From positions 1 to 51,383 of the forward strand of contig JAFWSW010000102.1 in assembly GCA_017519205.1 (NCBI GenBank): a stretch of 51,383 bases of DNA, given 5' to 3'. Both the position numbers and the translations under genes were made by a program. Shown here one piece after another: positions 31,191 through 35,497 of this stretch. The stretch comes from Clostridiales bacterium. Its GTDB lineage: Bacteria; Bacillota; Clostridia; Saccharofermentanales; Saccharofermentanaceae. The notes under the pieces are model-generated. The model was not told where the DNA came from. It worked only from the letters and a program-made list of their open reading frames with translations, and searched no databases. Every line of letters starts with the position of its first letter. Position 1 is the first letter of the stretch.

Positions 31191-31210
31191 CAGTAAAAAA
31201 GGAGGACACC

Positions 31211-31678
31211 ATGGTTATCAGAAGATTTAAGGAAGAACAGGCAAAAGAAGTATCGGATCTCATCAGAACGACGATCCGGATCTCAAATACGAAGGACTAT
31301 CCTCTGGAACTCATGGAACAGCTGATCGAGTCGGAAACACCGGAGCATGTGATCGAGCGGGCAAGCTGGACGCACTTCTATGTGGCTCAGGACGAAGGCC
31401 GTATCGTCGGCTGCGGCGCCATCGGTCCCTACTGGGGAAAAGAAGACGAGAGCAGCCTCTTTACGATCTTCGTGCTTCCCGAGTATCAGGGAAAAGGCGT
31501 CGGAAGATCGATCATCGAAACACTCGAAACCGACATCTTCTTCCTTCGCGCCAGAAGGATCGAGATCCCGGCCTCGATCACGGGGGTACCTTTCTACCTC
31601 AAAATGGGATACCATTATAAGGACGGAATAACCACACCGGATGACGAACATCTGATCAGACTGGAAAAGACCCGATGA
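31211..31678 (+). CDS. GNAT-family acetyltransferase
   Basis: A 155-residue GNAT: VIRRFKEEQAKEVSDLIRTT at the start, LFTIFVLPEYQGKGVGRSII with the Q-G-K-G-V-G acetyl-CoA loop, and VPFYLKMGYHY near the end. Substrate unknown. GGAGGACACC precedes the ATG at 31211, which is preferred over an upstream start that would lie inside the terminator. Its stop overlaps the region of the next gene's ribosome binding site, so the two are co-transcribed. Confidence 0.9.
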   Translation: MVIRRFKEEQAKEVSDLIRTTIRISNTKDYPLELMEQLIESETPEHVIERASWTHFYVAQDEGRIVGCGAIGPYWGKEDESSLFTIFVLPEYQGKGVGRSIIETLETDIFFLRARRIEIPASITGVPFYLKMGYHYKDGITTPDDEHLIRLEKTR

Positions 31679-32822: not shown

Positions 32823-32831
32823 TGCTATACT
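32823..32831 (+). promoter_or_regulatory. Extended -10 promoter of the MFS unit
   Basis: TGCTATACT: a TGn-extended -10 (TATACT, 32826-32831) with no good -35, 44 bases before the leader peptide start. Transcription would begin near 32838 and include the leader peptide and hairpins. Confidence 0.5.
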
Positions 32832-32874
32832 TCAAAATAGAAAAGTACGTATGAATACGAGGAGGTATTCAAAA

Positions 32875-32913
32875 ATGGTACGCTGCGAAGCAGACGCTCC
32901 ATGCAGAGCTTGA
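32875..32913 (+). CDS. Leader peptide of the MFS efflux gene, 12 residues
   Basis: ATG to TGA encodes MVRCEADAPCRA. GAGGAGG lies 9 bases upstream, one of the strongest binding sites in the window for so short a frame. The 3' end of the frame (32903-32915) is one arm of an alternative RNA stem, so a ribosome on it would decide which downstream hairpin forms. An in-frame ATG at 32851 could lengthen it to 20 residues but has no binding site. Translation and inducer are inferred. Confidence 0.5.
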   Translation: MVRCEADAPCRA

Positions 32914-32986
32914 GGAACTGTATGGAGGATAAATAGATCCTCAGGCTTTGCTCTTTCAATGAACACTAATTGAAATTGGAGCAAAG
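32903..32986 (+). promoter_or_regulatory. Candidate translational attenuator of the MFS gene
   Basis: Two mutually exclusive stems. Stem A:B pairs 32903-32915 (end of the leader frame) with 32939-32951 over 13 positions, two of them G-U. Stem B:C pairs CTTTGCTC (32946-32953) with GAGCAAAG (32979-32986) and TTTCAAT (32954-32960) with ATTGAAA (32969-32975). Stem B:C buries the GGAG (32978-32981) that serves the MFS start at 32990. No T-run follows, so control is of translation. A ribosome finishing the leader would cover arm A and favour the closed form; one stalled early would leave A free to open the site. Confidence 0.6.
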
Positions 32987-32989
32987 AAA

Positions 32990-34270
32990 ATGAATAAAAA
33001 AAACGAATTACGGGATTTCTATATACTCTGGTCCACCCAGAGCCTGTCACAGCTGGGAAGTGCCATAACGGCGTTCGCCCTGACACTGTGGCTTTACGAT
33101 GAAACGGGATCCACGCTTGGTACTGCCGCACTTCAGATATGCACCTATGCACCTTATGTGCTGATGAGCATCTTCGCCGGCGCACTCACGGATAAGTTCA
33201 ATAAGAAAAAGACCATGCTGGTCTGTGACCTTCTGGCCGCACTCACCACGGTTACTGTTTTCGTGCTTTATAAGACGGACACACTTTGTATCTGGCATCT
33301 GTATGCGGTCAATGCCGTCTCGGGTCTCATGAACACCGTGCAGCAGCCCGCCTCGGAAGTCGCGGATACTATGCTGGTCCCGAAGAAATACTATCAGAAA
33401 ACAAGCAGTCTTCAGTCGCTGACAAGATCTCTGATCTCGATCGGAAATCCGATCATCGCCACAGCCATCTACGAACTTGCCGGACTTGACGCGGCCGTCG
33501 CCGTGGACCTTTTTACGTTCGCGATCGCTTTTATCGCACTGGCAATGTTTATCCGTATTCCGGAGATCCCGGACAAGGAAGATACGGAAGGAAGTGTATT
33601 AAAGCTTGCTAAAGAAGGCCTTTCTTATCTGAAAGGAACACCCATGATCCTTTACGTGATCCTCTTCATGGCAGGAGTCAACTTTATTGCATCTGCTTTT
33701 GACGCAGCGATCATCGGATTGATCCTTCCGAATCCACGAGGTGGAAAATTCGTGCTGAGTATCGTCACCGCATTCTCGGGGATCGCGATGGTCGTCGGAA
33801 GCCTGCTGGCTGCAAACATGAAGAAGCCACGGGACCGCGTAAGAGTGATCTACCTGTCGATGCTCTTCTCTCTTTCCACCGAGAATTTCCTTCTCGCGTT
33901 CTCGAGAAGTCCGATCGTCTGGTGCTTCGCGCAGTTCATCGGATGGGTATTCGTACCGGTCATGGCGGCCAATCAGAATGTCACCATGAAGAGCACGATC
34001 CCTCCGAAACTTCAGGGACGTGTATATGCATGCAGAAACACACTTCAGTTTTTTACTATCCCGCTCGGACTTCTCTTCGGCGGATTCATGGTCGATGAAG
34101 TATGCGAGCCTCTAATGCGAAGAAGTAACGGGACGATGCAGGTGCTTTTCGGAACGGGAAAAGGATCCGGCGCCGCGCTCGTGATGTTCATCTTAGGCGT
34201 CATGGGAACGGTAATGTGTCTCATCTTCGGACACAAATTAAAGAAGTATCACTACACTGACGAATCGTAA
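32990..34270 (+). CDS. MFS efflux transporter, Mef-like group
   Basis: A 426-residue MFS protein with about twelve membrane segments. The order ILWSTQSLSQLGSAITAFAL, LTDKFNKKKTMLVCD (the MFS loop 2-3 motif) and VQQPASEVADTMLVP, LQSLTRSLISIGNPI follows the MFS_3 drug-exporter branch that includes Mef macrolide pumps and EntS; PPKLQGRVYACRNTL is the second-half counterpart. The substrate is unknown. Its ribosome binding site lies in a hairpin behind a short leader peptide, the kind of control known for antibiotic efflux and rRNA methylase genes. A bidirectional terminator follows. Confidence 0.85.
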   Translation: MNKKNELRDFYILWSTQSLSQLGSAITAFALTLWLYDETGSTLGTAALQICTYAPYVLMSIFAGALTDKFNKKKTMLVCDLLAALTTVTVFVLYKTDTLCIWHLYAVNAVSGLMNTVQQPASEVADTMLVPKKYYQKTSSLQSLTRSLISIGNPIIATAIYELAGLDAAVAVDLFTFAIAFIALAMFIRIPEIPDKEDTEGSVLKLAKEGLSYLKGTPMILYVILFMAGVNFIASAFDAAIIGLILPNPRGGKFVLSIVTAFSGIAMVVGSLLAANMKKPRDRVRVIYLSMLFSLSTENFLLAFSRSPIVWCFAQFIGWVFVPVMAANQNVTMKSTIPPKLQGRVYACRNTLQFFTIPLGLLFGGFMVDEVCEPLMRRSNGTMQVLFGTGKGSGAALVMFILGVMGTVMCLIFGHKLKKYHYTDES

Positions 34271-34278
34271 AGAAAAAA

Positions 34279-34317
34279 CGGGCCCACTGCTAATTAAGCA
34301 GCGGGCCCGAAGTTTTT
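34279..34317. terminator. Bidirectional terminator
   Basis: CGGGCCC (34279-34285) and CTGCT pair with AGCAG and GGGCCCG (34303-34309) with one A-C mismatch, loop AATTA. T-runs follow on both sides (34313-34317; leftward TTTTTT). It ends the MFS gene and the converging GNAT gene. Confidence 0.9.
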
Positions 34318-34329
34318 CGATTCTCTTAA

Positions 34330-34845
34330 TCAGGCTTTCCAGACGCTCTTGGCGATCTCGTAAACGCCTTCGTGATAGGAATCCATTCCCGTAAAGAAAA
34401 GCTCAAATCCGCACTTCTCAAGGACTCTTCCGGAGGCTTTATTCTCCAGAAGGCGGATGCCGTATACCTCAGTGACGCCGGCACGCTTCGCCATGACCGG
34501 AAGGAAAGCAGTGACTGCTTCTGTCGCATAGCCATTCCCGGTATATGCTTTTGCCACGTGATAGCCGATCTCCCACTTGCCGCCGTCGATCGGGACGAAC
34601 TGGACGTATCCGATGTTCTTTTCTTCGTCTTTCGTGATCAGGGCGTAGACCTGCGGACCTTCCATATTCCCATACTGGGACATCAGGAATTCGATCGTTT
34701 CCTTCGCATCCTCGAGTGTCTCGAAGACCTCATCCGGCACGAATTTTCTGACATCTTCGTCCAGCGAATTCTTGTGAACATCCATCGCCATGTCCATGGT
34801 CATTTCCGTTATTTTCAATCTGTCTGTTTCTAATAAAATACTCAT
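34330..34845 (-). CDS. GNAT acetyltransferase, RimJ/RimL-like
   Basis: A 171-residue protein opening LLETDRLKITEMTMDMAMDV, with WEIGYHVAKAYTGNGYATEA carrying the acetyl-CoA T-G-N-G-Y-A loop and LENKASGRVLEKCGF near the end. Substrate unknown. The ATG at 34845 follows AGAAAGG; a longer reading would add 21 residues that overlap the upstream gene. It starts 13 bases after the stop of the hypothetical gene at 34859. Confidence 0.9.
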   Translation of the reverse strand: MSILLETDRLKITEMTMDMAMDVHKNSLDEDVRKFVPDEVFETLEDAKETIEFLMSQYGNMEGPQVYALITKDEEKNIGYVQFVPIDGGKWEIGYHVAKAYTGNGYATEAVTAFLPVMAKRAGVTEVYGIRLLENKASGRVLEKCGFELFFTGMDSYHEGVYEIAKSVWKA

Positions 34846-34858
34846 TTCAAAACCTTTC

Positions 34859-35497
34859 TTACTTGACGTGCCAGACCTCGCCGTTCGGCATGATCTGCAT
34901 GTCTCCATTTACTTTTTCTAAGATCTCTCCAGTCTTTACATCCCGCACTACGGTCTCCACACGGTAATCCGGGTCTTCGTACCAGGTGCTGAAAAACAGC
35001 TTGTTTTCATCGCGGAAAAAGTAGCTCTCTTTCTCGTCCGTTTCGATCGTTTTTCTCTCCGGCCAGATCAGCTCCAGCGTGCCGTTATTCGGCTGACGTG
35101 TGAGCGTCAGCGGATGCTCGGAGAGCTTCAGATTATAGCAGTCTGTAACGGATGAAAGATCGATCGTCTCCAGTTCTTTAAGCGAGCGGTCAGAACAGTC
35201 GAACTGCCGGATCACGATTCTCTTTTCAGCAAATTTTACCTCGAGAAAAGAGATCTTCCCGTCGTGATAGACCGGCTCTCCGATCGATATATTTTCCTGT
35301 GGAACAAGCGGAGCGATCACTTCTCCGTCCGGATAGTGAACAAGGAAGAAATGACTTCCGAGAAGCGTCCTTCCTGTCTCGTAGATCTCCTGTGCCTCAT
35401 AGAGGTCGCCGCCGGCATAGTCCAGCGCGTAGTACCATTCCGATGTGCCTTCCAGGGCACGAAGATAAGTTAGTCCGTGAATATCCAGCTCTTTCAT
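34859..35497 (-). CDS. Hypothetical protein, beta-rich
   Basis: A 212-residue soluble protein, not recognised. It has alternating hydrophobic/charged strands (GSHFFLVHYPDGEVIAPLVP; KISFLEVKFAEKRIVIRQF) suggesting a beta-sandwich or propeller-like repeat. No signal peptide. AGGAG precedes the ATG. Located between malY and a GNAT gene, all leftward. Confidence 0.75.
   Translation of the reverse strand: MKELDIHGLTYLRALEGTSEWYYALDYAGGDLYEAQEIYETGRTLLGSHFFLVHYPDGEVIAPLVPQENISIGEPVYHDGKISFLEVKFAEKRIVIRQFDCSDRSLKELETIDLSSVTDCYNLKLSEHPLTLTRQPNNGTLELIWPERKTIETDEKESYFFRDENKLFFSTWYEDPDYRVETVVRDVKTGEILEKVNGDMQIMPNGEVWHVK

Follow-up and report, generated by a model that had tools for sequence, protein, structure and literature searches.

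A probable leader-peptide translational attenuator with a putative MxxC sensor ahead of a Mef-like efflux pump gene in Clostridia

What controls the MFS efflux pump gene that lies in a 51,383-nt stretch of DNA from a Clostridiales bacterium (contig JAFWSW010000102.1; this whole stretch is called the window here), and what would switch it on? An initial annotation, made from the sequence alone, had noticed ahead of this gene a 12-residue reading frame with a strong ribosome binding site, followed by two competing stems, and had suggested that early stalling of a ribosome on the frame would open the pump gene. Comparison with relatives and folding calculations now make it very likely that the element is a translational attenuator, in which the Shine-Dalgarno (SD) sequence of the pump gene would be freed by a drug-stalled ribosome on the leader.

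The frame and its SD are present, and both stems are real (Table 1). The 13-position stem described earlier (32903-32915 with 32939-32951) extends to 32903-32916 with 32938-32951, and the "8+7" stem said to hide the GGAG of the pump gene consists of an 8-bp core (32946-32953 with 32979-32986), which is conserved, and a 7-bp extension, the sequence of which is not. Since arms D and E have 32946-32951 in common, the C:D and E:F stems are mutually exclusive, just as had been proposed. The two-stem picture was nevertheless incomplete, as it had overlooked the arm pair A:B and the pairing of arm A with the pump SD, where GCTCC (32896-32900, the 5' end of arm A plus position 32896) is able to pair with GGAGC (32978-32982); both are central to the switch. 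The resulting layout, A:B / C:D / E:F, is an ermC-like set. The region 32823-33010 folds at -54.8 kcal/mol, compared with -31.5 +/- 3.6 for shuffled sequences (z -6.4; 0 of 200 shuffles). A consensus scan gave no promoter at the leader.

Table 1. Parts of the leader, the switch and the pump gene in the window.
Feature	Position	Strand	Remarks
Candidate extended -10 TGCTATACT	32823-32831	+	weak; read by eye; region common to the window and L002
Leader Shine-Dalgarno GAGGAGG	32859-32865	+	sequence; a purine-rich SD stands ahead of nearly all family leaders
Leader peptide MVRCEADAPCRA	32875-32913 (ATG 32875, TGA 32911-32913)	+	12 codons
Arm A CTCCATGCAG	32897-32906	+	codons 8-11; partner arm B in 22/22 group-1 leaders; compensatory changes
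Arm C GCAGAGCTTGAGGA	32903-32916	+	end of leader frame and stop; partner arm D
Arm B CTGTATGGAG	32918-32927	+	just 3' of leader stop; partner arm A
Arm D TCCTCAGGCTTTGC	32938-32951	+	overlaps arm E; partner arm C
Arm E CTTTGCTC	32946-32953	+	anti-SD; partner arm F
E:F extension hairpin TTTCAAT/ATTGAAA	32954-32975	+	32954-32960 with 32969-32975, 7 bp; seen in the window and L002
Pump SD GGAG	32978-32981	+	upstream of pump ATG 32990
Arm F GAGCAAAG	32979-32986	+	partner arm E
MFS efflux pump gene	32990-34270	+	426 aa, Mef-like, TIGR00900 (H+ antiporter subfamily)
Intrinsic terminator-like stem, 3' of pump gene	34279-34309	.	minus-strand scan match, possibly two-way

The pump protein matches Pfam MFS_1 and MFS_3 as well as TIGR00900 (E 4e-55, 187.6 bits against a naming cut-off of 319.6) and Mef(A) (E 3e-31, 109 bits against an NCBIfam cut-off of 675). 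By sequence it is nearest to the Mef proteins, though far under their naming cut-offs. No relative of solved structure was found by sequence search. A PAS-domain protein and the pump lie between two GNAT acetyltransferase genes (31208-31678 and 34330-34908), of which the second is on the opposite strand, behind the terminator-like stem that it has in common with the pump gene.

A search of a genome collection returned 23 loci with pump relatives of 63-89% identity, mainly in MAGs of rumen and gut origin with the labels Lachnospiraceae, Oscillospiraceae and others. The whole element was found in 21 of the 22 full-length pump relatives (those with a gene start in this first search); the sole exception (L018) has its pump gene directly behind another open frame. 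In an alignment of the near set (group 1) made by MAFFT and not fitted to any structure, A:B is paired in all 22 sequences, window included, C:D in 99% of cells with changes on both sides, and E:F in 99.4% of cells. Covariation within this set alone is modest because most pairs never vary, but where the leader changes its RNA partner changes too: Cys10 is replaced by Arg (TGC to CGC) with compensation in arm B (L014, L015 and L016), Ala12 by Val (GCT to GTT or GTC) with compensation in arm D (L008 and L023), and one leader (L010) ends in TAG with arm D altered to match. As these residue changes track their RNA partners, the C-terminal APCRA of the leader is largely RNA-driven.

Beyond the near set, a covariance model gave matches at E < 1e-21 in 24 of 115 genomes of the GTDB family of the window, and at class level the element precedes nearly all pump relatives of at least 50% identity with readable upstream DNA. 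Across an alignment of 66 leaders, 8 pairs of A:B and E:F are changed on both sides (3.7 in shuffles, 0/500), with 41 compensatory cells against 9.7 in shuffles (0/500), counts which lean towards the model structure to which the alignment was fitted and in which relatedness among the leaders is uncorrected. The true A:B and E:F register pairs at 96%, and slid controls at 30-56%. C:D was searched leader by leader, apart from this count; outside the near relatives its sequences are unrelated and still complementary (GGACGA/TCGTCC, GGGACG/TGTCCC, GATACGC/GCGTATC). Frame and pairings are thus both kept in relatives, with compensatory changes, and the covarying pairs A:B, C:D and E:F include mutually exclusive hairpins, one of them over the SD of the gene. 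Weak model matches at L060-L063, L070, L071, L074, L075 and L076 were judged chance, and so was L026, where the genome of the window matches the core with two mismatches. Searches of plasmid DNA with the leader gave no match, and a phage search gave none either; a protein search returned three plasmid pump relatives, of which the two near 50% identity have the leader.

We then asked the folding model when the pump SD opens, by letting a ribosome footprint block the RNA codon by codon. In the ribosome-free window RNA the opening is 0.02; it is 0.30 with codon 4 in the P site (ribosome edge +16) and 0.36-0.38 with codon 5 (edge +15), and with codons 6-12 the SD is closed again, at about 0.05. 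In absolute terms the opening probabilities are modest (0.33 for the window). Over the 66 leaders the mean is 0.09 free, 0.41 stalled and 0.17 beyond 9 hidden nt, and in 50 of them the peak falls where 6-7 nt of arm A are hidden, which corresponds to a P site on codon 4 or 5. This closed-open-closed behaviour was seen in 14 of 22 real leaders and in 1 of 330 shuffled ones; L005, L030, L040 and L041 hardly open in the model. The earlier suggestion of early stalling agrees with the model, in which opening of the SD is confined to P-site positions around codons 4-5, so that a stall at a defined codon would be expected to free it and the switch geometry would predict the stall codon to +/- one codon. 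In the ribosome-free window RNA C:D is thermodynamically favoured, so repression would need the weaker A:SD pairing or co-transcriptional folding; the complementarity of GCTCC and GGAGC would account for an SD that remains closed even while C:D is formed and no ribosome is present.

These results suggest the following division of labour, in which the N-terminal MxxC would be the sensor and arms A-F the switch. With neither drug nor ribosome, the pump SD would be held by E:F, or by the GCTCC of arm A while C:D forms. Without drug, ribosomes that reach the leader stop would cover arms A and C, so E:F would form. A drug-bound ribosome would stall with its P site on codon 4 or 5, carrying the nascent chain M-x-[R/L]-Cys-..., and its leading edge would hide the first 6-7 nt of arm A. 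Neither A:B nor A:SD could then form; arm C, left free, would pair with D, E would be withdrawn from F, and the pump SD would open. We infer that stalling is drug-dependent and that the MFS protein exports the inducer.

The short leader frame appears to be translated, judging from its SD, synonymous changes and fixed spacing over 12 codons. Among 58 distinct leaders all but three have an ATG at the standard position, 21 nt 5' of arm A. One of the three (L108) has GTG at that position; the other two, with an N-terminal extension (L015) or a start one codon later (L092), keep the distance from Cys to arm A. At position 3, 48 of the 55 distinct ATG leaders have R or L, spelled by a variety of synonymous codons; at position 4, Cys is likewise found in 48 of 55 (TGC 41, TGT 7). 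The others have Ala (4 leaders, which belong to related pumps and so are not independent), Ser, Thr or Ile (1 each), and L084, outside this count, has Met. Codon 7 is unconstrained. Outside the arms the strongest conservation lies in the codon-4 peptide motif, its SD and the fixed spacing; in a subset of leaders codons 3-7 can fold as a small hairpin, which may be an additional sequence constraint there. The conserved part of the peptide is thus its N-terminal MxxC (M-x-[R/L]-Cys), which, to judge from these comparisons, probably acts as the sensor.

The same sensor is found on other arms. Leaders reading MKLCIVMAGIVSN..., MKRCIAMAGIVSN, MRRCIASADIVD and (GTG)KMCIVVTGIVE (that is, MK[LR]CI[VA]... 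besides the last two) stand before vat-like genes in four genomes, at L072, L073, L116 and L118, and were collected from model matches and a follow-up search. They have a two-arm attenuator layout in which arm A again begins at the second base of codon 8, with the spacing of the pump leaders, and has the beginning of the vat gene as its pairing partner (CTGGAATAGT/ACTATTCCAG at three loci, CCGATATAGTTG/CAACTATATCGG at L116). Three vat-like proteins (L072, L073 and L067) match the streptogramin A acetyltransferase model NF000311 at E ~1e-70 (235-237 bits, under the cut-off of 300); of these three loci, L072 and L073 have the MxxCI[A/V] sensor. In the upstream DNA read for vat relatives at or below 63% identity this sensor was absent. 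Some pumps (L069/L080, L081 and L079) likewise have a minimal two-arm version, in which arm B holds the SD and the D-E-F arms are missing. Because the arms vary among four-arm and two-arm versions, what is constant is the MxxC peptide and its spacing. A pattern search for an SD followed by MK(L)CI in 398 genomes of the phylum returned one match, a vat leader, against 3 in reversed controls, so this pattern alone is no useful probe.

Conversely, the same switch carries other peptides, namely MKLTRWGIPL..., MVHTDRGISL... and MFFIFFKTLRLA.... The first two lie before the Mef-like pumps of L051-L059, which are weak covariance-model matches with the same anatomy (MKLTRWGIPLSADVKASCKV in L051-L055, MVHTDRGISLAADVMAPRKV in L056-L059), and a 35% pump relative (L103) has MFFIFFKTLRLASCRD on the same RNA switch. 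Two genomes (G098 and G107) each hold both the MxxC and the HTDRGIS type. In the simple model a clear opening window of this kind was mostly missing from the vat leaders and from the leaders with other peptides. Since one switch with different peptides precedes related pumps, sensor and switch appear to have recombined, and since the MxxC motif is found in front of an antibiotic-inactivating gene as well, it appears to be a drug sensor that can be reused and that has not been described before. The chances seem to us evenly balanced that MxxC[I/E/S][A/V] is an undescribed drug-dependent arrest motif, an interchangeable cassette whose recombination with the switch probably serves different drugs.

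Which drug would be sensed? The most likely inducer would be a drug acting at the peptidyl-transferase centre (a phenicol, streptogramin A or a related class). If the stall comes at P-site codon 5, as predicted, the penultimate residue is residue 4. Chloramphenicol and linezolid stall best with a penultimate Ala and less well with Ser or Thr, and the available part of that source does not mention Cys in this role (PMC8987054). A penultimate residue 4 fits but does not prove such a drug. The same switch could respond instead to a macrolide, as do the RLR-type erm and mef leaders, a rival that concerns the inducer only; the pump is closest to Mef proteins, and R or L at position 3 is reminiscent of MRL(R) leaders. 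However, the +x+ (RLR) motif is missing in most leaders, the window's own included (it reads MVRC, with MxxC as family consensus), the conserved Cys4 lies outside that motif, and this sensor also stands before vat-like genes, a family whose target is streptogramin A. We therefore consider a macrolide possible but unlikely.

The initial annotation had also invoked mef genes, and mef(E)/mel, the nearest named pump family, is indeed regulated by transcriptional attenuation, by way of the leader MTASMRLR and a Rho-independent terminator (PMC4335068). Attenuation by a leader peptide holds here, as the conserved frame and pairing argue, but the mef-like transcriptional form of it does not, and control appears to be translational. 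An intrinsic terminator in E:F or another hairpin, of the mef(E)/mel or erm(K) kind, is very improbable: the sequence after E:F, AAAATGAATAAAAAA, has no U tract, a scan found no plus-strand terminator between 32700 and 33490, and the SD itself lies inside E:F in nearly all 66 leaders. Rho-dependent polarity may act in addition to the translational switch. A sensor of amino-acid starvation, in which the ribosome waits at the Cys (or Arg) codons and the substrate of the MFS protein is an amino acid or a compound related to cysteine, would suit Cys codons 4 and 10 and the open frame in front of the leaderless L018, which by eye resembles cysteine synthase. Yet replacement of Cys10 by Arg is accompanied by a change in its RNA partner, some leaders do without Cys4, a ribosome waiting for Cys4 would have its P site on codon 3, a position at which the modelled SD opens much less, and the same sensor serves vat-like drug acetyltransferases while the pump is Mef-like; we find this reading hard to credit and have rejected it together with the terminator. 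Least probable of all is a ligand-binding riboswitch or protein-bound RNA with an incidental frame, which would explain the strong and conserved RNA structure, but no Rfam model matches the leader element at gathering score, the peptide motif with its SD and spacing is what is best conserved outside the arms, arm sequences are replaced wholesale while the frame persists, and the two-arm versions (L069, L081 and the vat leaders) have hardly any space for an aptamer.

Translational attenuation is an already known class of mechanism. Closest in plan are the ermC-type attenuators of macrolide resistance methylases: they too have a short leader frame with its own SD and three alternative arm pairs. 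There, as proposed here, ribosome stalling uncovers the SD in front of the resistance gene (PMC4335068, PMC11264731). In contrast to them, the present element controls an MFS pump, its sensor MxxC is none of the known erm stalling peptides, the stall is predicted at codon 4-5, and arm A lies within the leader frame and can also pair with the pump SD. The drug-inducible mef(E)/mel (mega) likewise has a leader peptide before a related MFS pump, but differs in its terminator, peptide and RNA layout. The very short uORFs of cplR, vmlR and lsaA in Clostridia and Bacilli share early stalling and an anti-SD hairpin, with cplR partly translational (PMC10201436) and also equipped with a terminator; they read MR[I/M], MIN, MK[L/Q] and MAGN and control ABC-F proteins, whereas the present frame extends through the arms and Cys4 is conserved. 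In the toiL uORF of E. coli topAI, stalling by several drug classes opens an occluded ribosome-binding site (PMC12121999), in another organism, before another gene and with another peptide. Literature searches on the element and on the APCRA or MKLCI peptides, with subscription journals largely outside their reach, gave only unrelated papers or related attenuators. To judge from these comparisons, the sensor motif and its swapping are new.

If this reading is correct, these leaders make up a family of switches for inducible resistance that is widespread among Clostridia of gut and rumen, lies outside all Rfam models and controls pumps scoring below resistance-gene cut-offs. With different peptides on a shared RNA chassis, and the same peptide on more than one chassis, the family would offer a natural data set on which nascent peptides respond to which ribosome drugs.

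Two further observations were made along the way. The leader of a tet(M) gene on an Enterococcus plasmid (L113:399-485) reads MLCIPMVMHKN..., sharing MLCI with the pump leader MLCIAKAPCKV of L092, a weak lead that may be chance. Leader-like elements also stand at L067 and L068 before a gene for a protein of 87-88 aa (MKYINANEILPK...), which presumably resembles CD3324-type proteins; at L067 this gene is followed, in the same direction, by the vat-like gene.
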